Source: Bacteroidota bacterium
Lineage (GTDB): Bacteria > Bacteroidota > Bacteroidia > Chitinophagales > UBA10324
Assembly: GCA_014190575.1 (NCBI GenBank)
Contig: BJGQ01000004.1
Location: 62,001 to 126,000 of the forward strand
Reading direction: 5' to 3'
Length of the DNA stretch: 64,000 bases
Shown: positions 2,439-47,099 of the stretch, one piece after another
Layout: the number at the start of each line of letters is the position of its first letter
Numbering within the stretch: position 1 is the first letter of the stretch
Position numbers and translations under genes: made by a program
Notes under the pieces: model-generated
Database searches by the model: none
Told to the model about the DNA's origin: nothing
What the model saw: the letters and a program-made list of their open reading frames with translations, nothing else

Positions 2439-3452
2439 TTAGGGTGCGCTTTTTAAAATGGTGTAACGAAGTAAAACATCCAAGAATAAAAAAATTCCGG
2501 CGAAGAATGCGAAGGCATAAAATTTTTCGGTCTTCCGTTCAAAAGCACTCACTTCAATTTTTGTCTTCTCTAATTTATCAATCTGGTTATAAATTTCTTT
2601 CAGCTTCTTATTATTCGTAGCACGAAAATATTGTCCGCCAGTTTTCTTTGCAATATCTGTGAGCAATGCTTCATCAATCTGAACATCAGCTAAATCATAA
2701 ATCAATTGTCCGTCCGGGGTCATTGCAACCGGAGTCATCGCTTTTCCATTGGAGCCGATTCCTATTGTGTAAACACGAACACCATACTGCATGGCAATAT
2801 CGCATGCAGTAAGCGGGTCAATTAATCCCTTGTTGTTTACACCATCTGTCATCAGAATCACCACTTTGCTTTTCGCTTGACTTTCTTTTAATCGTTGAAC
2901 TGCTGTTGCCAATCCCATTCCTATTGCAGTTCCATCTTCCAATAAACCATTTTTCATCATTGATAATTGGTTCTTCAATATCGCGTGGTCAATGGTTACT
3001 GGACATTGCGTAAAACTTTCACCTGAAAAAACCACCACTCCGATTCTATCATGCGGTCGTTCATCAATAAAACTCATTGCTTCTTTTTTTGCTGACTCTA
3101 ATCTGTTTGGCGAAAAATCTTTCGCGAGCATGGAAGCAGATAAATCCAGTGCCAGTACAATATCAATTCCTTCGGTCGTCATTTTCTCTTCATCAAAAGA
3201 TGTTTGCGGCCGTGCAATAGCAATCAGTAATAAAATAATTGTCAGCACGCGAATTACCGGAAGAAATTTTTTCATCGTTGCTTTCAATGGATTTCCAAAA
3301 CCCGAAAATGATTTGGTGGATGAAAGTTTGAGCGAAGAATAATTTTTCTTAGAAAGAAAATACCACCACAATATTGAAAGCAATATCACAGCAGGGATAA
3401 GCCAGAGAACCCATTTGTCGTTGAAAGTGATATGTGATAAATTGTTAAACAT
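2439..3452 (-). CDS. batA: BatA, membrane-anchored VWA-domain protein
   Basis: The protein has 337 residues with the same plan as BatB: N-terminal helices (about 14-33 and 66-81), a VWA domain (about 95-295) and a C-terminal helix (about 310-330). The MIDAS motif is D103-L-S105-A-S107, with MTDGVNNKG as the later metal-site loop. BatA and BatB probably form a membrane complex linked to aerotolerance in Bacteroides; the exact role in this organism is unknown. The start overlaps the end of the upstream membrane protein gene by eight bases, which suggests translational coupling. Confidence 0.93.
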   Translation of the reverse strand: MFNNLSHITFNDKWVLWLIPAVILLSILWWYFLSKKNYSSLKLSSTKSFSGFGNPLKATMKKFLPVIRVLTIILLLIAIARPQTSFDEEKMTTEGIDIVLALDLSASMLAKDFSPNRLESAKKEAMSFIDERPHDRIGVVVFSGESFTQCPVTIDHAILKNQLSMMKNGLLEDGTAIGMGLATAVQRLKESQAKSKVVILMTDGVNNKGLIDPLTACDIAMQYGVRVYTIGIGSNGKAMTPVAMTPDGQLIYDLADVQIDEALLTDIAKKTGGQYFRATNNKKLKEIYNQIDKLEKTKIEVSAFERKTEKFYAFAFFAGIFLFLDVLLRYTILKSAP

Positions 3453-36050: not shown

Positions 36051-36062
36051 AAATTACATTTG
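36034..36062 (+). promoter_or_regulatory. Promoter of the leucine-rich-repeat cargo gene
   Basis: TTG at 36034-36036 and TACATTTG at 36055-36062 are 18 bases apart, a full match to the Bacteroidota promoter. The predicted transcript starts after 36066. This rules out the in-frame TTG at 36060 as a start codon and favours GTG at 36102. Confidence 0.7.
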
Positions 36063-36101
36063 AGAACAGTAGCTCATTACCAAATCATCAAAATAATTTT
36101 C

Positions 36102-39100
36102 GTGAGAAAATTTTTTACAACTCTTCTTCTTGTTTTCTCTCTCTCGATTTGCAAAGCGCAGTGGGTGACTATACCTGATGCGAATTTTGTTGCTTATCTG
36201 CAATCTGTTTTTCCTTCTTGTATGAATGGAAACTTGATGGATACTACTTGTAGTGAAATTGTGAATGCAACTAACTTATCTTTTGGAGGATATAATTTTT
36301 ATGATTTAACTGGCACACAATATTTTGATTCTTTAGACACACTTATTATTGGGCATAACCAAATTGCAAGTTTACCCCCATTTCCAAATTCTTTAACTTA
36401 TCTTGATTGTTCATTAAACATACTCACAAGTTTACCTGTACTTCCAAATACGCTAACTCACTTGGAATGTCCGAGTAATCAATTAACCTACTTGCCACCT
36501 TTGCCAAATTCTTTAACTTTTCTTGATTGTCAACATAATTTAATTACAAGTTTACCAATACTACCGAACTCATTAACTGCACTTATTTGTCATAGTAATT
36601 CATTAACATATTTGCCGACTTTGCCGAATTCATTATCAATACTTGGATGTGGGTTCAATTCTTTGACGAGTTTGCCATCATTGCCGAGTTCATTATCTGG
36701 GCTTCATTGTTTTAGTAATTCAATCACAAGTTTACCTGATCTGCCGAATTCATTAACAGCTCTTTCATGTTATAATAATTCTTTAACGAATTTGCCAATC
36801 CTACCGAATTCAATTAATACCCTCGATTGTTATAATAATTTACTAACTAATTTGCCTACATTACCATCTACATTATATTCATTTACGATTCAAAATAATC
36901 CTGGTATTCTATGTATGCCTCCACTACAAAACTTTACTGGTCCATCTATTTATTTTAATATTTCTAATACGGGTATTACATGTCTTCCTAACACCATTCA
37001 GCACGCAGGTTATATGGCTCAAATTGATACAATGCCAATATGCGATGTGTTTAATACAAATGGTTGTGAAGTTTCATGGAATATTAAGGGGAATATTGTT
37101 TTAGACGGAGATGGAAGTTGCACTTCTACTAATGATGGCACTGGAACTCCAATGATTAAAATGAATTTGTATGATTCAGGAAATAATGTTATGCAACAGG
37201 AAATTGCAAATTGGGGAGGAGATTATTCTTTCGATACACAACTTGGAATTTATTCGACATCAGTTGATACTCTAAATCTCTCATTCAATATTTTGTGTCC
37301 GTCAAATAATTCTGTTGCAAGTAACCTTACAACTATTGATTCAATGGATTACAATGTTGATTTCAGATTGGTTTGCAAATCAGGATTTGATATTGGAGCT
37401 TGGAATGTTTTTCGCCATCCTAATTTTTTTCCTGGAAATATAAATCGAGTTCATGTTCTTGCTGGCGATTTTGTTCAAAGTATTTACAATGTAAGTTGCA
37501 ATTCAGGAATCAGCGGAGAAGTAAAAGTTGTAATCAATGGTCCTGCAAATTATCTCTCACCATTAGCTGGAGCACTAATTCCAATTGTAAACGGGGATAC
37601 TTTGATTTATTCAATCGCTGATTTCTCATTGGTAAATGCAAATTCAGATTTTGCATTTAATGTTATCACTGATATAACTGCACAAATTGGAGATGAAATT
37701 TGTTTTGATGTAACTGTTACACCCACAGCAGGCGATAATAATATTTCGAACAACACACTCACACATTGCTTTGCAGTCAACAATTCTTACGACCCTAATG
37801 AAAAAGAAGTAAGTCCTGTTGGCAGTTTAGCTTATCCTTATAATGACTGGCTTACTTACACTATTCATTTTCAAAACACAGGTACTGCTGCCGCACAACA
37901 CATTCAGATACTCGATACACTCGATGCAGATTTGGATGCAAGCACTTTTCAGTTGCTCTCTTATTCATTCGCTCCATTGGTGCAGATAACCGGAAGCAAT
38001 GTGGCTTTCGATTTTATCAATATTAATTTACCTGATAGCGGAACTGATTTAACCGGTAGTCAGGGTTATGTTAGTTACAGAGTAAAACCATTATTGAATC
38101 TTCCGTTCGGTTCATTCATTCAAAACACTGCAAGCATTTATTTCGATTTCAATTCGCCGGTGGTTACAAACACAGTGAGCAATTTGATTTGTAATCCAAC
38201 CACTTCAACAACTACTGCAACAATATGTGAGGGCGATACTTATTTTTTTGAAGGAAGCACATTAACTGTTGCCGGAAATTATTCTGTCACACTTCAATCA
38301 GTTATCGGCTGCGATTCTATTATCAATCTTAATTTAATTGTTGACCCGGCTGTTACAAATTCAATTGCCCAATCCATTTGTTCTGGAATCACTTTTAATT
38401 TTAATGGTCAGCAACTTTCATCATCAGGAATTTATCACGACACATTAACTGCAATAACCGGATGTGATTCAATTGTGAATCTTTCGCTAATAGTTTTACC
38501 TGCTTTAACTTCAAGCATCAATCAAACTATTTGTGCAGGTGATTCAATAAACTTCAACGGAACCATGCTTGACACCACAGGTATTTATGCTGATACACTT
38601 TTAACACTTAGTGGCTGCGATTCAATCGTAACACTTCATCTTTCATTAATCAATGCGGTTACACATTCCATCTCCGCAAATATTTGTCAGGGTGATACAT
38701 TAAATTTCAATGGCGCATTACTCACTTCAACCGGAACTTATTATGATACTTTATCAGCCGTAACCAATTGCGATTCCATAGTTGTCATGCATCTTAACGC
38801 GCATGAATTAAATGCGAGCATTATTTTGAATGGAAATACTTTTACTGCAACCGGTCTTGGAATTATACAATGGATTAATTGCGATAGTGGCTCATTTGTT
38901 CCTAATGCAATTGGCAGCACTTTCACTCCAACCATTGTCGGTAATTATGCCGCATGGGTTTGGGATGGATTGTGCAGCGATACCACCGAATGTGTGTTCG
39001 ATGGTTTAACAGGTGGGAATGGTGAATTGTTAATCGAAAATAACTTTGTTGTATTCCCAAATCCAACCGATGAAAATATTACTGTTCAACTTTTACAATC

Positions 39101-39275
39101 ATCAGTTGACTGCAACATTGAAATATTAAATACGCTTGGGCAAATTTTATTTTCAGAAATTATTAATGATAAATCAGAAACAATAAACCTGAAATCATTT
39201 TCTTCGGGAATATATTTTGTGAAAATTATAACTGCGGATGGAAACTTTGCAGTGAAGAAAATTGTGAAGGAATAA
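36102..39275 (+). CDS. Leucine-rich-repeat T9SS cargo, type A sorting domain
   Basis: The protein has about 1057 residues. The GTG start at 36102 gives a clean signal peptide (MRKFFTTLLLVFSLSICKAQ) and lies after the promoter. Nine 20-residue leucine-rich repeats of the form LP-LPNSLT-L-C--N-LTS follow, the IpaH/YopM-like bacterial type. Next come an extracellular beta domain with DPNEKEVSP and YTIHFQNTGTAAA (DUF11/DUF7619-like), and four cysteine-containing repeats (ICEGDTYFFEGS, ICSGITFNFNGQ, ICAGDSINFNGT, ICQGDTLNFNGA). The end is a type A sorting domain (VFPNPTDENITVQ ... GIYFVKIITADG). It is probably a surface-attached binding protein. Confidence 0.88.
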   Translation: MRKFFTTLLLVFSLSICKAQWVTIPDANFVAYLQSVFPSCMNGNLMDTTCSEIVNATNLSFGGYNFYDLTGTQYFDSLDTLIIGHNQIASLPPFPNSLTYLDCSLNILTSLPVLPNTLTHLECPSNQLTYLPPLPNSLTFLDCQHNLITSLPILPNSLTALICHSNSLTYLPTLPNSLSILGCGFNSLTSLPSLPSSLSGLHCFSNSITSLPDLPNSLTALSCYNNSLTNLPILPNSINTLDCYNNLLTNLPTLPSTLYSFTIQNNPGILCMPPLQNFTGPSIYFNISNTGITCLPNTIQHAGYMAQIDTMPICDVFNTNGCEVSWNIKGNIVLDGDGSCTSTNDGTGTPMIKMNLYDSGNNVMQQEIANWGGDYSFDTQLGIYSTSVDTLNLSFNILCPSNNSVASNLTTIDSMDYNVDFRLVCKSGFDIGAWNVFRHPNFFPGNINRVHVLAGDFVQSIYNVSCNSGISGEVKVVINGPANYLSPLAGALIPIVNGDTLIYSIADFSLVNANSDFAFNVITDITAQIGDEICFDVTVTPTAGDNNISNNTLTHCFAVNNSYDPNEKEVSPVGSLAYPYNDWLTYTIHFQNTGTAAAQHIQILDTLDADLDASTFQLLSYSFAPLVQITGSNVAFDFININLPDSGTDLTGSQGYVSYRVKPLLNLPFGSFIQNTASIYFDFNSPVVTNTVSNLICNPTTSTTTATICEGDTYFFEGSTLTVAGNYSVTLQSVIGCDSIINLNLIVDPAVTNSIAQSICSGITFNFNGQQLSSSGIYHDTLTAITGCDSIVNLSLIVLPALTSSINQTICAGDSINFNGTMLDTTGIYADTLLTLSGCDSIVTLHLSLINAVTHSISANICQGDTLNFNGALLTSTGTYYDTLSAVTNCDSIVVMHLNAHELNASIILNGNTFTATGLGIIQWINCDSGSFVPNAIGSTFTPTIVGNYAAWVWDGLCSDTTECVFDGLTGGNGELLIENNFVVFPNPTDENITVQLLQSSVDCNIEILNTLGQILFSEIINDKSETINLKSFSSGIYFVKIITADGNFAVKKIVKE

Positions 39276-39300
39276 TTTTATTAATAACCAACGACTGTAA

Positions 39301-39430
39301 TTGCGAGGAGAGTGTATTCACTCGACGAAGCAATTTTTCAGCACAGGTGCGAAATCAGAAGCTAATATTTTTATCACTATTAATGTTGAGGGATTGCTTC
39401 AAAAACTGATTACAGTTTTCTCGCGATGAC
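39301..39430. repeat. Long imperfect palindromic element with internal hairpins
   Basis: The left arm 39301-39334 and the right arm (about 39393-39426, read inverted) share TTGCGAG/TCGCGAG and GAAGCAAT at the ends. They enclose about 58 unpaired bases. Each arm also holds its own small hairpin: GAGTG-TATT-CACTC (39310-39323) and AAAACTG-ATTA-CAGTTTT (39402-39419). It lies between a plus-strand cargo gene and the 3' end of the giant minus-strand gene. It resembles dispersed GCGAG...GAAGCAAT palindromes known from many genomes. Confidence 0.7.
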
Positions 39431-39455
39431 ATGAAATGAGTTTTATTAAAAAAAA

Positions 39456-42400
39456 TTATCTAACAATTGTAACAGTTCCGCTTGAAGCATATCGTCCGTT
39501 CTCATACTTCATTCCAAGCCAGATGGTATCATCCATAAAGGTTGCTTCGCATCTCCATACATAGGCATCTTGTGGCATCAATGCACCTTTGTAATATCCA
39601 TCCCAACTTTCAACCGGAGCCGTTCTATCTAACTTATATGATTCCCACAACAGATTTCCCCAAGTGTCGAACACTTGTATGTGATAGGTTTTCAATCCAA
39701 AACCTTTTGGTGTAAACAATCTGTCTTCCGGTGCTCCGTATTCCGGAGTCATTGCATTCGGAATAAATAATCCTTTATAAAAATCTAAAAATGTAGGATG
39801 GAAAACAGTATCAACACAACCATAAATATTTGATGCAACCAGCATCACATTGTATTCACCTGCAAATTCATAGGTGTGTGTTATGTCATGGTAAGTACTG
39901 GTGTCACCATCAGCAAAATCCCATAACCAAGCATCAGAATTGGTTGAGAGATTAAAGAAATCTACTTGTCCATTCAAAACGGGAGTTGTACTTTGTAGGT
40001 AAACAAATTCAGCTTCAGGTTCAGGATATACATTGATAATATTATTCTGAATATTTAAATCATTGCAACCACCTAAACCGCTTACATAAAGTGTAACATC
40101 ATAAGCACCGGGACCTGTAAATGTGTGAATAGGATTTTGAGTGGAATCTGTTTGGCCATCGCTATAAGACCATATCCAGTTCAATGCATAGGGAGAAGAA
40201 TCAGAAAATGCAACTGTAACCGGATCGCAACCTTCAGGTGGATCAAAACCAAACACAGCAATCGGCTGAGGGAAAACTGTAACTATACTTTGTAAGGTAT
40301 CCGTACAATTGTATTGGTCGTATCCGATTAAAGTGTAAGTAGTGGAAAGTGTCGGGCTCGCTGTTACTGTTGAGGTAACAGTTGAATTTAATCCGGCAGC
40401 AGGAAACCATTGATACGATACTGCCCCATTGGAAATTATGTTAGTGGATTGTCCATCACAAATTGAAGTTGAATCCGGTGCAATATTCATAACCGGAAAA
40501 TGAACTACAACAGCAAGCGGCCATGCAGCAGTACATCCATTCACATCAGTTCCGATAATTGTATATGTTGTATTGAAAGAAGGAAAAACAGTTACTGTGT
40601 TTCCGCTTCCTGATGACAATCCTGTTAACGGAGCCCATACATATGTGAGAGCACCGTTCGCTGTAATTGTTGTTGAATCTCCTCTGCAAATTGCAGGATT
40701 CGGTTGGCTGAAAGTTACCGGCGGCGGATAAACTATTATTTGTGCGGTTGCATTTGCGGCGCATCCATTAATATCTACTCCGGTTACTGTGTATGTAGTA
40801 GTTACAGTTGGAGATGCAATGACACTTGCACCTGTTGAAGAGGATAAAGTAGAAATAGGCGACCAGGTATAAGTGAATCCTCCACTTGCATTCAGCACGG
40901 TTGATGTGCCATTACAAATCCAATTGTTCACCGGAGTCAATTGAATTTGCGGAGGATTAAAAACGGTTACAAAAACAGAATCAATGTTCGCACATCCGGC
41001 TGCGCTTATTCCTGTTACGGTGTACATAGTTGAAATTGGAGGTGTTGCCAATACACTGTTTCCGGTTGAAGAATTTAATCCACCTGCCGGTGACCAGTTA
41101 TAAGTTGTCGCACCACTCGCAATCAGATTTGCATTTTGTCCGAGGCAAATACTCGGGTTGTTCGGATTAATATTTACTGATGGAATTGGATTGATAGTAA
41201 TAACAATTGTTGAAGTGATGGCGCAACCACTTAAGTTAGTTGTAGAAACAGTGTAAGTAGTTGTAACGATGGGCGATGCATTCACGCTTGAACCAGTTGT
41301 AACATCCAATCCAGTTGCAGGCGACCATGTGTAAGTTAAACCACCTGATGCAACAATGTTTGTTGTTTGCCCCTGACAAATGCTTGTGCTTCCTGCAATT
41401 AATGTAAGAGTTGGAACAGGTAAAACGGTCATCACTAAAGAATCTTTATAAAAACATTGTGATGGCGCAGGCGAATAAACTAAAATATGATTTCCAACTG
41501 TTGCAAGTGTAGGATTGAAAGTTCCCAATAATGGGTTAGTAATTCCTTGTCCGCTCCATGTGCCGCCGGCGGGAGTGAAGCCGGTTAAACTAAACGGAGT
41601 AGCATTAACGCAAGTGGTATCATCAGGTCCAACATTTCCTATTTGTGGTTGAATAACTGTTACCAGTAATGAATCATCATTTGTGCATCCATTCAAATTT
41701 GTAACACTATAGTTTATCCAGAATTGACCAACACCCGAAACTGTTGGATCAAATGTTCCTTGAAAACCATTGGTAACTCCTGTTCCTGTCCAGAAACCAC
41801 CAACAGGATTAAATCCAAACATGTTGAATGGTGTTGCATACAAACAAACATTCTGATTGTTTCCGGCATTCACATTTGGTAGTGGATTTACTACAACCGT
41901 TACAGGCAAACTGTTTGAACAACCCAATGCATCAGTACCACTTAAAATATATTGTGTTGTAATTGTAGGGTTCACAGTTACAATTGCTCCGGTAGTTGAA
42001 GAAATATTTGTTGATGGTGACCAAGAGTAAGAGCTCGCACCACTCGCAGTAATTTGAATTGACGATCCGATACACAATTGCGGCAACACTGGAACAATTA
42101 AAAGATTTGGTGCAGGTTGTACTAAAACAAAAGTTGTATCGCTCGTGGTGCATTGCCCCATTCCGATAGAATAAAAAACAGGATGCAAACCTGGACCAGC
42201 AAGTGTGGGATTAAAAGTTCCACTTAAATTATTTACAATTCCAAATCCACTCCAGTAACCACCGGCAGGAGAATTTCCTGTTAACACTAACAATGGTGAG
42301 AAAAAACAAGATGTATCACCAGGTCCGGCAACCGGCCATGTTGTTGGAGTAACAGAAATATTTATGGAATCTAAATTGGTACACCCATTTGCATTAATGA

Positions 42401-45400
42401 CAGAATAAAAAACTGTGAATGTTCCCAGTCCGGAAACCATTGGATTAAACACTGCATTTATCGGGTCTATTATTCCCGGGCCATTCCAAGTTCCTCCTTG
42501 TGGTGTGAACCCTGTGAGTGTAACTGTTATTGGTGTATGGCAAACTGAAATATCAATTCCTGCATTGATTGGTGGCAACGGATATACAGTAATTTGTGAG
42601 AAAGCAGAATCTTTACATCCATTCAAATCAGTTCCGATAACGGTATAAGTTGTATTGGTAAATGGACTTGCATTAACTGTGGAACCGGTTGATGCACTCA
42701 ATGAAATACTCGGCGACCATAAATAATTTGTTGCGCCAGATGCATTCATAATAATACTTGTGCCTGCACATTGAATAACTGATGCCGGAACTAAACCCAC
42801 ATTCGGAATAGGATGAACAACAATTAAAACCGTATCTGTTGTTTGGCATCCGCTTGTGGTAATTGCAGTTGCAGTATATGTTGTTGTAACAGTTGGATTT
42901 GCTGTAACTGTTGCACCACTGCTTGCACTCAATCCTGTATTGGGTGACCATTGATATGTGTTGCCATTGTTCGCAGTCATGGTTGTGCTTTCACCCATGC
43001 ACAAATCATAATCAGGTGAAGTAGCAACAGTATTTACATTCACACTAACAGGAACAGTTGTTGAATCCATACAACCAAAAACCGATGTTCCGATTATGGT
43101 GTAAGTAATATTTGAAACAGGATTTGCTGAAACATTATTTCCTGTTGTAGAACTGATTCCTGAATTCGGACTCCATGTATAAGATGATGCACCACTTGCC
43201 GTAATATTTTGCGGAGTGTTCAAACACAACACCACGGGATTCGGATTAATATTTAAATTCGGAAGTGGATGAACAACCACTGTAACTAAACTTTGAGTTG
43301 TGCAACCATTCGCTCCGGTCACCGAAACTGTATAAGTTGTTGTAATAGTTGGATTGGCAGTTACAGTTGCCCCATTAGTATTACTCAATCCGGTTGATGG
43401 ACTCCATTGATAATTTACTGCGCCGTTTAATGTTATTGATATTGATTCGCCAATACACATATTTGGATTCGCCGGATTTGAATTTATTACAGGAAGCGGT
43501 AGAACATTTACCACTACTGTATCGTCATCATTGCAATTCAATCCGCTTGTTCCGGTAGTGGTATAAGTTGTTGTGACTGTTGGATTTGCTGTTACTGTAT
43601 TTCCGGTTGTGGAACTTAAACCGGTGTTCGGTGTCCATGTATAATTCACCGCACCAGTTGCATTCAGAACAGTGCTTTGACCAAAACAAATTGTGTAATC
43701 AATAGTTGATACAGTAACATTTGGTAAGCCATTTACACCAAGTTGAACAGTTGTTTGTGCAGTACAACCTGCGGCTGTTGTTCCAATTACAGTATAAGTA
43801 AATGTTCCAACTGCCAATGGAGTTGCAATTACTGTTGCACCAGTTGATGCAGAAAGATTTCCTGATGGACTCCATGAGTAAGTACTTGCACCCGATGCAG
43901 TCATTGACTGAGAATTCCCTAAACAAATAAAAGGAGCAGGAGGATTCACACTAACAACCGGTAGAGGATTTACTACTACAATTACTGTGTTGCTTGATGA
44001 GCAACCATTAGCACCATTGCCGGTAACAGTATAAGTTGTGGTTACAGTTGGATTCGCAGTAATATTATTTCCATTGGTTTGACTCAATCCTATTGACGGC
44101 GACCATTGATAACCGAAACCTCCGGTAGCAGTTAATGTGGTAGAACCACCTGCACAAATTTGTCCCGGTGGATTTACATTAATATTCGGCAGCGGCAAAA
44201 CATTTATCACCACAGTATCAGTTGCAGTACAACTCGCTCCAATAATTCCGGTTAAAGTATAAGTGGTTGTGATTGTTGGTGAAGCTATAGTTGTAGATGA
44301 ATTTGGATTTGATAATCCGGTAACAGGTAACCACGAATAAGTTGTTGCGCCACCTCCATTTAATGTTGTTGATTGTCCATTACAAATAGTATAATCAGGA
44401 GATGATGCAGTAACTACCGGTAAAGCAGTTACGGTAACTACAACAGTTGCAGTTGCTGTACATGAATTTACACTTGTTCCAAGTACTGTGTAAGTAGTAG
44501 TGATGGTTGGGTTTACAGTTACAGTTGTTCCGGTTGTTGGATTAATTCCTGTTGAAGGCGACCAGGTATAAGTGCTTGCACCATTTACAGAAATAACAGC
44601 TGAACTTCCTGTGCAAATTGTTACCGGATTCGGATTAATATTTAATACAGGAAGAGGATTTACAGTTACAACACTTGTTTGTTGATCTGAACATGTTCCT
44701 GTTGTTCCGGTAACAGTATATGTGGTAGTAATAGTTGGAGTAGCAGTTACACTTGCTCCTGTAGTTGCACTCAATCCATTTGAAGGACTCCATGTATAAG
44801 TTGTAGCTCCGGTTGCAGTGAGTGTTGCACTTTGCCCTGCGCACAATGGCAATGGAGTATTTACATTCACAATTGGTGCAGGAATTAATGTAATAATTAC
44901 AGGCTCATTATCAGTACAACCATTTGCATCAGTTACCTGAAGTGTATAAGTAGTGGTTGCTGCCGGAGTAGCAGTTGTTGAACTGTTCCAGGGCGTATTA
45001 AGTGTAGCAGTTGGTGTCCATGAATAATTATAACCGGCTGTTCCACCACTAGCACTTCCTGTTAATGTGGTTGAAGTTCCATCACAAATGGTTTGATTGG
45101 GTCCTGCATTGGCAGTAGGAATACAATAAACATTTGCAGGTGTAGTTCCGCAAGTTGTTCCGCATTCATTGGTAGCACAAATGGAAATGGTATAATTACC
45201 GCAAGCTGCATAAGTTACTGATGGTGGATTCTGATTGGTTGAACTTGCAGGTGTTCCGCCGGTGAAAGTCCATTGATAGGTTGAAATTGTTCCTCCCCCA
45301 TTACCAAAAGTTGCAGACGGAGTTACAGTCAAAGTTCCACATGCCGATGGAACCGGAGAAACTGAAACTGTTGGAGGCGATTTAATAACTATTGTTTGAC

Positions 45401-47099
45401 AAACTGATTGTACAGGACATGGTCCATTATCAACTTCCAAACAAATAGTATAAGAACCTGCTGTACTGAAACTTAATGATGGACTTGTAGCAGATGAAAC
45501 CCAAACACTATTGATGTACCAGTTATATGAAAGTGTTCCACAACCTGTTCCGCTTGAAGTATTCGTAGTTGTAACATTTACAGGTGCGCAACCAATAGGT
45601 CCTAAATTAAATCCTGCTGTTGGAGGAGCAACAATACAGAATTGCTGAATGAGCGTATCATTTCCACAAGGATTGCCGGTAATTAATCGAGCAGTATAAA
45701 CTCCTGGTGTTGAAAAAGAATTACTATAAGTTGCTAATGTGCTTGTAAGGTTAGTGGCTCCCGGACCCGTTATGAGCCATGCTGTAGTTACAGTATTTAT
45801 ACAAACACCATTCGAAATAAAAACTCCGATAGAAGTATTTGTAAAAGATACCGGTGAATTAGTACACTGCGGATTTGGTGATATGGTAAAACTTGGAGTA
45901 GGTGGAAGGCAAATTCTAATTGGTTCAACAGTAGATGCAGCAGAACCACAAGGATTAGTAGCAAGAATGGATACATAAAATGAATTGGTAAAACCTCCCG
46001 GACTTGTAAATCCACACGAAGAAATATTGTAAGTGTGAACAATGGTATCAGGCAAATTTGCTTGTGTGTAAGAACTTGAAGGGCCATCACCGTACGATAC
46101 AATGTATGTTGTTCCTGGTGTGTTACTGTTTGTGTTCAACACAGGAAAACTTAAAGTCACAGGGCCACAAATGCAAGGCGATAATTGCGGAATTCCTAAG
46201 CCCACCGCAGGATTCCCTCCACTGAAAACAGTATAAGTTTGTACATCAACACAACCATTTTGCCCCGTAACTGTTACAGTAATAGTAAAATAACCAAGCG
46301 CGTTATAAGTATGACTTGTTCCGTTTGGAAGAGTCGCACCATAATTTATGGCAGGTCCATCACCCCAGTTGATTGTATAGTTTGTATTGGTTGCCTGTGT
46401 AGTTGAAGCGTTGTCTATTGTCAATGTATAACTTGTCCCGGAACCAGTTTGACAATTTGTAAAAGCGGAAAAAACATTCTGATCAGCAATTGCTGCATCC
46501 GGAGCTGGTGTAATAGTTACCACATGTGTTATAGAGCCGGTGCACCCTTGTGCATTCGTTGCAATTAATGTTACAGTATAATTAACTGCGGCGCCATTTC
46601 CTGTTGCAGAAAATGTATGCGAAGGATTTGTGGCGGTGGAAGTATTACTCGCCCCCGAAGCAGGATCTCCGAAATTCCATTGATAAGTTAAACCGGCTGC
46701 AGGTGTCGATACATTTGGAAAACTAACAGCTGAAGATGCACAAGGATTTGGTTGTGTTATATTGAATGCAGCAATTGGTGTTGGAAGCATAGTGACAACA
46801 ATTGTTGCTGTTGAGGTTGGTCCACCTCCACATCCTTGGGCAGTAACAGTATAGGTTGTTGTTACGGTAGGAGAGGCTGTAACAACCGAAGTATTTGTTG
46901 CACTTAAACCAGTAGTAGGCGACCAGGTATAACCAGATGCACCAGTTGCATTTGCAGTTAATACTGCTGATTGTCCATTACAAATAGTTGCCGGTGATGG
47001 GACTGTCGTAATTGTTGTGTTGCATTGAGCCGCTACAAAATATGAAAAAGCAATTCCTAAACAGGTTAATATAAATTTTAATTTCATGTATCGTAACAT
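39456..47099 (-). CDS. Giant repeat-rich T9SS cargo, type B sorting domain
   Basis: This 2547-residue protein is the largest in the window. A signal peptide (MKLKFILTCLGIAFSYFVAA, from the second ATG at 47087) is followed by one Ig-like unit and a PKD-rich part (to about residue 640). A further 21 consecutive units of about 65-80 residues follow. Over the whole protein I count 18 units of the type IC-GQST-L-ATGA-TY-WSP and four of a second type (TGFTPAGGTW-G-GI). Two PKD domains and a type B sorting domain (LFIPNAMTPEYGAPEDRLF ... VFDTWGNLLWES ... GTVTIVR) close it. It is probably a long extracellular adhesin or fibre. Confidence 0.9.
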   Translation of the reverse strand: MLRYMKLKFILTCLGIAFSYFVAAQCNTTITTVPSPATICNGQSAVLTANATGASGYTWSPTTGLSATNTSVVTASPTVTTTYTVTAQGCGGGPTSTATIVVTMLPTPIAAFNITQPNPCASSAVSFPNVSTPAAGLTYQWNFGDPASGASNTSTATNPSHTFSATGNGAAVNYTVTLIATNAQGCTGSITHVVTITPAPDAAIADQNVFSAFTNCQTGSGTSYTLTIDNASTTQATNTNYTINWGDGPAINYGATLPNGTSHTYNALGYFTITVTVTGQNGCVDVQTYTVFSGGNPAVGLGIPQLSPCICGPVTLSFPVLNTNSNTPGTTYIVSYGDGPSSSYTQANLPDTIVHTYNISSCGFTSPGGFTNSFYVSILATNPCGSAASTVEPIRICLPPTPSFTISPNPQCTNSPVSFTNTSIGVFISNGVCINTVTTAWLITGPGATNLTSTLATYSNSFSTPGVYTARLITGNPCGNDTLIQQFCIVAPPTAGFNLGPIGCAPVNVTTTNTSSGTGCGTLSYNWYINSVWVSSATSPSLSFSTAGSYTICLEVDNGPCPVQSVCQTIVIKSPPTVSVSPVPSACGTLTVTPSATFGNGGGTISTYQWTFTGGTPASSTNQNPPSVTYAACGNYTISICATNECGTTCGTTPANVYCIPTANAGPNQTICDGTSTTLTGSASGGTAGYNYSWTPTATLNTPWNSSTTATPAATTTYTLQVTDANGCTDNEPVIITLIPAPIVNVNTPLPLCAGQSATLTATGATTYTWSPSNGLSATTGASVTATPTITTTYTVTGTTGTCSDQQTSVVTVNPLPVLNINPNPVTICTGSSAVISVNGASTYTWSPSTGINPTTGTTVTVNPTITTTYTVLGTSVNSCTATATVVVTVTALPVVTASSPDYTICNGQSTTLNGGGATTYSWLPVTGLSNPNSSTTIASPTITTTYTLTGIIGASCTATDTVVINVLPLPNINVNPPGQICAGGSTTLTATGGFGYQWSPSIGLSQTNGNNITANPTVTTTYTVTGNGANGCSSSNTVIVVVNPLPVVSVNPPAPFICLGNSQSMTASGASTYSWSPSGNLSASTGATVIATPLAVGTFTYTVIGTTAAGCTAQTTVQLGVNGLPNVTVSTIDYTICFGQSTVLNATGAVNYTWTPNTGLSSTTGNTVTANPTVTTTYTTTGTSGLNCNDDDTVVVNVLPLPVINSNPANPNMCIGESISITLNGAVNYQWSPSTGLSNTNGATVTANPTITTTYTVSVTGANGCTTQSLVTVVVHPLPNLNINPNPVVLCLNTPQNITASGASSYTWSPNSGISSTTGNNVSANPVSNITYTIIGTSVFGCMDSTTVPVSVNVNTVATSPDYDLCMGESTTMTANNGNTYQWSPNTGLSASSGATVTANPTVTTTYTATAITTSGCQTTDTVLIVVHPIPNVGLVPASVIQCAGTSIIMNASGATNYLWSPSISLSASTGSTVNASPFTNTTYTVIGTDLNGCKDSAFSQITVYPLPPINAGIDISVCHTPITVTLTGFTPQGGTWNGPGIIDPINAVFNPMVSGLGTFTVFYSVINANGCTNLDSINISVTPTTWPVAGPGDTSCFFSPLLVLTGNSPAGGYWSGFGIVNNLSGTFNPTLAGPGLHPVFYSIGMGQCTTSDTTFVLVQPAPNLLIVPVLPQLCIGSSIQITASGASSYSWSPSTNISSTTGAIVTVNPTITTQYILSGTDALGCSNSLPVTVVVNPLPNVNAGNNQNVCLYATPFNMFGFNPVGGFWTGTGVTNGFQGTFDPTVSGVGQFWINYSVTNLNGCTNDDSLLVTVIQPQIGNVGPDDTTCVNATPFSLTGFTPAGGTWSGQGITNPLLGTFNPTLATVGNHILVYSPAPSQCFYKDSLVMTVLPVPTLTLIAGSTSICQGQTTNIVASGGLTYTWSPATGLDVTTGSSVNASPIVTTTYTVSTTNLSGCAITSTIVITINPIPSVNINPNNPSICLGQNANLIASGATTYNWSPAGGLNSSTGNSVLATPPISTMYTVTGISAAGCANIDSVFVTVFNPPQIQLTPVNNWICNGTSTVLNASGGFTYTWSPISTLSSSTGASVIASPTVTTTYTVTGVDINGCAANATAQIIVYPPPVTFSQPNPAICRGDSTTITANGALTYVWAPLTGLSSGSGNTVTVFPSFNTTYTIIGTDVNGCTAAWPLAVVVHFPVMNIAPDSTSICDGQSTNIISNGAVSYQWFPAAGLNSTVTSTVTASPTLSTTYTLIGYDQYNCTDTLQSIVTVFPQPIAVFGFDPPEGCDPVTVAFSDSSPYALNWIWSYSDGQTDSTQNPIHTFTGPGAYDVTLYVSGLGGCNDLNIQNNIINVYPEPEAEFVYLQSTTPVLNGQVDFFNLSTNSDAWLWDFADGDTSTYHDITHTYEFAGEYNVMLVASNIYGCVDTVFHPTFLDFYKGLFIPNAMTPEYGAPEDRLFTPKGFGLKTYHIQVFDTWGNLLWESYKLDRTAPVESWDGYYKGALMPQDAYVWRCEATFMDDTIWLGMKYENGRYASSGTVTIVR

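Follow-up and report, generated by a model that had tools for sequence, protein, structure and literature searches.

A head-to-head pair of REP-type palindromes with a CGTC-like tag, a fixed frame and a variable inner hairpin in a Bacteroidota genome

The element described here lies between two convergent genes in a window of 64,000 nucleotides, the whole stretch of DNA that was analysed. The upstream gene (36060-39275, forward strand) ends 21 bp before the first unit of the element and encodes a secreted protein that combines leucine-rich repeats with a Por_Secre_tail (T9SS) domain. The convergent neighbour (39456-47099, reverse strand) encodes a very large PKD/Ig-like/CHU_C-type surface protein. 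Between them, positions 39297-39430 hold two units arranged head to head, with their tags pointing outward. Unit 1 (39297-39335, forward strand) carries the tag GTA (consensus GTC), an outer stem ATTGC/GCAAT (5' strand at 39300-39304, partner at 39330-39334), a GA/GAA internal loop, and the core GGAGAGTGTATTCACTCGAC. This core (39307-39326) forms a hairpin with the loop TATT; its stem is paired at the first position, mismatched at the next two (a nested tandem G.A mismatch) and paired at the following five. After a spacer of 56 bp (39336-39391) follows the inverted unit 2 (39392-39430, reverse strand), with the tag GTC, the outer stem ATCGC/GCAAT (one mismatch), and the core GAAAACTGTAATCAGTTTTT. 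Including the preceding base, the two tags read TGTA and TGTC. A 9-bp direct repeat, TTTTATTAA, brackets the whole element (39276-39284 and 39441-39449) and represents a possible, AT-rich candidate for a target duplication.

Both units follow the design GTC-ATTGC-GA-[hairpin]-GAA-GCAAT-C, with a length of 39 nt including the tag, rather than the 34 bases assigned to each arm in a previous sequence-only reading of the locus. Unit 1 departs from this design by the GTA in the tag place and by its final T. In the covariance search, units 1 and 2 gave R1 matches of 61.4 and 62.5 bits, respectively. The ends GCGAG..GAAGCAAT were observed twice in the window, both times at the focal pair, against a chance expectation of 0.03. 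The two inverted arms had been proposed to fold into individual hairpins, and each of them does so when folded as RNA (z about -3.6 and -3.35, with no shuffle equalling either). The whole element also folds (DNA z -4.0, RNA z -5.8), and in the full-length RNA one long arm-to-arm hairpin is favoured over two separate arm hairpins.

A general repeat finder run on the window did not report the focal pair, and copies were located by pattern and covariance searches. The exact ends yielded two convincing relatives elsewhere in the source genome, a wider pattern had matches in 16 of 61 relatives while its reversed form had none, and a covariance model trained on eight units found 10 units in the source genome and 0 to 13 across five congeners. 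Across the phylum, the pattern GTCATTGCGAN{4,34}GAAGCAATC is present in 104 of 395 sampled genomes, with 0/395 for the reversed control, and the exact pattern matches reach a maximum of 449 in genome G062, with 150 in G135. Among public genome contigs, the type found in the genus, with the loop TGTAWTCA, matches in Chitinophagaceae-labelled MAGs and in many Patescibacteria. The latter hold the same frame and loop as the genus, their cores are again hairpins, and the GTC tag precedes nearly all of them, even though the search pattern did not demand it. A single match in Rossellomorea was discarded as chance, being without the tag and only weakly paired. The tag is spelled TGTC in the genus and CGTC in G062 and G012; in the 3' tail past the stem only the first C is constant, followed by TG, TT, CT and others. 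The core ranges from 5 to about 36 nt and can be almost any self-complementary sequence. The pattern GTCATTGCGA..GAAGCAATC is also found in many IMG/VR viral contigs among the matches listed (L307-L386).

REP sequences have been divided according to a GTAG or a CGTC tag, the CGTC super-family, whose tag may also read TGTC or CCTC, comprising CGTC-1 to CGTC-4 and including dRS3 and the Rickettsia elements RPE-4 and RPE-6 (Di Nocera, De Gregorio and Rocco 2013, PMC3733652). The element described here shares with this super-family an unpaired CGTC/TGTC tag, a stem opening with AT, the lack of a dedicated transposase (here by a Y1_Tnp search), and the prevalence of head-to-head dimers, which are often heterodimers. 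Like its members, it is found mainly between convergent or unidirectional genes, with some intragenic copies. However, the published CGTC families have uninterrupted stems of 8-9 bp and loops of 4-5 bases (PMC3733652, with the stem and loop lengths in its Table 1), whereas in the units described here the stem has 5 bp and leads through the GA/GAA internal loop into a variable hairpin core. Because the 8-9 bp stem and the 4-5 base loop are lacking, the element belongs to the super-family by its tag, but fits none of its four families. The published families also have an unpaired tail of three bases, mostly CCA, and in the units described here the first base after the stem, C, is constant. The authors of that classification remark that some members may have gone unnoticed if their structures are bulged, and they left open the question of which enzyme, if any, moves the CGTC-type palindromes (PMC3733652).

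Similarities extend to other kinds of repeats. The GTAG REPs and BIMEs that form REPtrons with RAYT genes are also short, imperfect, tagged hairpins, single or paired, and in some GTAG families the inner loop is self-complementary and varies in length (PMC3733652), but the tag is here GTC/GTA and not GTAG/GTGG. The Rickettsia elements RPE-4, -6, and -7 share the GTCAT/ATGAC ends (PMC3767692) and the in-frame location within protein genes; the ATTGC-GA..GAA-GCAAT frame is absent from the published texts consulted. The Rfam covariance models gave no match for the element, and no description of the frame was found in the open-access literature searched, although it may be described elsewhere. The architecture is apparently unnamed.

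Covariation is seen in the inner stem of the unit. A comparison of arm 1 (GGAGAG-TG-TATT-CA-CTCGAC) with arm 2 (GAAAAC-TG-TAAT-CA-GTTTTT) confirms the two compensated positions that had been noticed from the sequence, from G-C to A-T and from G-C to C-G, and the same two positions vary in the genus alignment, as pair 14-27 (AU 5, GC 3) and pair 16-25 (CG 4, GC 3). Three pairs are altered on both sides in the 31-nt class of the genus, where 100% of the cells are paired, and three such pairs, the two just named among them, are found in the 35-nt class, which contains both focal arms (91% paired). With slid partners as a control, the signal is gone in the 31-nt class and much reduced in the 35-nt class. 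Across the order, five positions of 68 cores are Watson-Crick paired at a frequency of 0.70 with their own arms and of 0.30 with swapped arms (sd 0.02), and among 141 distinct cores a Watson-Crick outermost pair is found at a frequency of 0.887, compared to 0.479 with swapped arms.

Furthermore, two congeners share an orthologous locus (G002:C416 and G003:C8, 87.5% identity over 1.9 kb) at which the frame is identical while the entire inner stem has been replaced, one core being AAAAACTGTAATCAGTTTTT and the other TGATTGTAATCAATCA. A further pair of loci, L075/L079, has a gene flank in common on one side only, and is supportive but not decisive as ortholog evidence. The pairs L084/L096 and L092/L255 were not counted as orthologs, since the flank that they have in common consists of a longer repeated sequence. 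A longer dispersed repeat, TTGCTCAGACCAAAACCC..GACTGTTACACTGACGCTCCATCAAAAAAA, adjoins several units and is also located beside one Y1 gene (L084, L092, L096 and L255; L039 2060-2117).

The mismatches tolerated in the cores differ between the strands. Read on the tag strand, they amount to 47 G.A against 4 T.C and 12 G.T against 2 A.C, counts that are not phylogenetically independent, because many cores share the GGA..GAC motif and many copies a nested tandem G.A step. Since G.A and G.T are tolerated in the strand that folds on itself, while folding of the opposite strand would show T.C and A.C, this bias suggests that it is the tag-bearing strand that folds. Mini-hairpins of the d(GCGNAGC) type exhibit a high stability in DNA, and the shortest cores hold GNA triloops in 21 of 30 cases. 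Taken together, the mismatch bias and the triloops are a hint, but not a proof, that the folded form is single-stranded DNA.

Of the units lying close together, 11 of 12 pairs in G062 and 4 of 4 in G135 have their tags outward; single units and dimers with other spacings are also common. The focal spacer aligns with the spacers that type-B dimers have at other loci of the genus (G004:C26, G004:C1 and G000:C11). The focal dimer and its spacer resemble dimers at unrelated loci of G004 (about 73-80% identity over 152 bp), so that dispersal of a dimer as one block is possible. In G003 and G005 the element is missing from the orthologous gene pair, and the orthologous flanks are too diverged to have yielded a clean empty site with a target duplication. 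In G005, the site orthologous to the focal element holds a tandem array of CATAGAGCAAAGTTTCCTTCGCAACGAATAGAGATTG repeats (L264 about 1400-1800, G005:C5). Regarding placement, a 400-kb sample of G062 contains 19 intergenic elements, 12 of which lie between convergent genes, compared to 32 convergent gaps among all 209 between genes (Fisher p about 1e-5). Some units are also found within genes. In-frame single units (RLLRTDYSSRND or similar) occur in four genes of G000 and G005, always at one and the same position of the type IX sorting domain (L076 1554-1588, L088 1466-1499, L089 1519-1553 and L087 1553-1593), and a dnaE-like gene of G012 (L251 2821-6873) holds an in-frame unit dimer at 3204-3434.

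The identification of the element as a genuine, widely dispersed REP-type palindrome of the CGTC kind is well supported, and the two-unit REP put forward in the sequence-only reading agrees with the dispersed copies, the covariation of the inner stem and the tagged head-to-head dimers; that reading would have been abandoned had neither a second copy nor covariation been found, and both are present. The focal element is a heterodimer, joined head to head, of a REP-type repeat standing beside the CGTC-tagged palindromes; this repeat is probably non-autonomous and spread in trans. Each unit comprises four parts: the (C/T)GTC tag is unpaired, the 5-bp outer stem and the GA/GAA loop are fixed, and the inner hairpin varies freely. 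An enzyme acting in trans on such units would read the tag and the imperfect foot of the hairpin on single-stranded DNA, and because it would ignore the sequence of the core, the cores would be free to drift or to be replaced as long as they remain paired. This enzyme would not be a resident Y1/RAYT transposase, at least in the richest carrier. Copies would be retained mostly at the 3' ends of genes, either because they cause the least harm there or because they stabilise transcripts. A bolder version, which we consider decidedly improbable, regards the frame as a docking site and the inner hairpin as an exchangeable cassette, with cores swapped in place by a non-Y1 enzyme common to several phyla that reads the GTC tag and the GA/GAA foot on single-stranded DNA. 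Since such an enzyme would replace cores in place, orthologous elements would carry unrelated self-complementary hairpins.

Several other explanations have to be weighed against the trans-mobilised REP. That the element is a classical REP moved by a RAYT (a Y1 HUH transposase) of the same genome, like the GTAG REPs of E. coli, is quite unlikely, despite the resemblance of a tag with an imperfect hairpin to the substrates of Y1 enzymes (PMC6006769). Y1 genes are present in 43 of the 61 relatives and a few units are 0.4-2 kb away from such a gene, but the presence of units and that of Y1 genes are not associated among these genomes (Fisher p 0.35), and the tag is other than GTAG/GTGG. A unit is found in the flanks of only 1 of the 29 Y1 loci scanned, inside the neighbouring dnaE-like gene. 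The search for a RAYT-type transposase suggested in the sequence-only reading did reveal such genes; however, those examined are flanked by other palindromes, as are the two Y1 genes of the source genome. Likewise, the RAYT-like genes of G002 and G003 that are close to units (188 aa, with a weak PF01797 match) have a distinct palindrome around them, GCTCGATTTGCAATCGAGC (repeated at L253 2100-2330 and 3017-3045, and at L249 1945-2830), probably their own REP. The proximity of units to RAYT genes was therefore rejected as a link. Finally, G062, with 449 copies on one complete contig, has no Y1_Tnp (PF01797) match, and neither have G240, G394, and G334, so that a resident RAYT is not required; the enzyme may since have been lost, or may be one outside PF01797. 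The idea of a MITE, with the arms as terminal inverted repeats left by a DDE-type insertion sequence that has been lost, is very improbable. It is consistent with the movement of dimer and spacer as a single block and with the direct repeat TTTTATTAA on both sides of the focal element. However, this AT-rich repeat is 10-12 nt away from the tags and has no counterpart by eye at L093 and L094, single units and variously spaced dimers are common, each arm is a covarying hairpin by itself, and no insertion sequence with such ends was encountered in passing.

A function as RNA, with selection acting after transcription on a bidirectional 3'-end hairpin or an mRNA-stability hairpin, for instance, would account for the location of the focal copy and of many G062 copies between convergent genes, for the stable RNA fold, and for the excess of G.T over A.C; the preference for gene 3' ends equally fits an RNA role. 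Nevertheless, this explanation is unlikely, as the focal copy has no T-run and no terminator call, the T content outside the tags equals the background in G062, the presence of the element is patchy, and copies are found in frame within coding genes. The processed RNA contemplated in the sequence-only reading is not supported either, with neither a terminator nor an Rfam RNA found. For the covariation itself, the strongest competing explanation, possible although less than probable, dispenses with selection. Template switching is a known mutational process in imperfect inverted repeats, and when linked to replication in quasipalindromes it copies one arm onto the other, so that both sides change together. 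It would explain the en-bloc replacement of the core at the orthologous site and the existence of cores of any length. By contrast, the GA/GAA loop and the nested tandem G.A are kept, though correction would erase both, the mismatches are strongly skewed to G.A and G.T on one strand, and the outer frame is constant across phyla. The covariation noticed in the sequence-only reading holds, but selection on arm folding is not its sole reading, since template-switch correction could also produce changes on both sides.

With a family in about a quarter of the sampled genomes of the phylum, and 449 copies in a complete genome devoid of Y1_Tnp, the combination of a rigid frame with a free hairpin provides concrete substrates and hosts in which to seek the mobilising activity of the CGTC-type palindromes. 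Until it is named, the frame can also confuse annotation, both as in-frame inserts and as repeats in MAGs.

The outer stem also seems to differ between families, as suggested by a second tagged palindrome of G062, GTC-ATCCT/ATGCT-GA-[GCGNAGTC]-GA-AGGAT/AGCAT (L267-L286, G062:C1:1-400000), whose general frame has 22 matches against 0 in the reversed control. This palindrome shares the tag, the AT start, the GA internal loop and the short core with the element described here, but exhibits another outer stem and a symmetric GA/GA loop. It is often nested or interleaved inside the ATTGC-type dimers.
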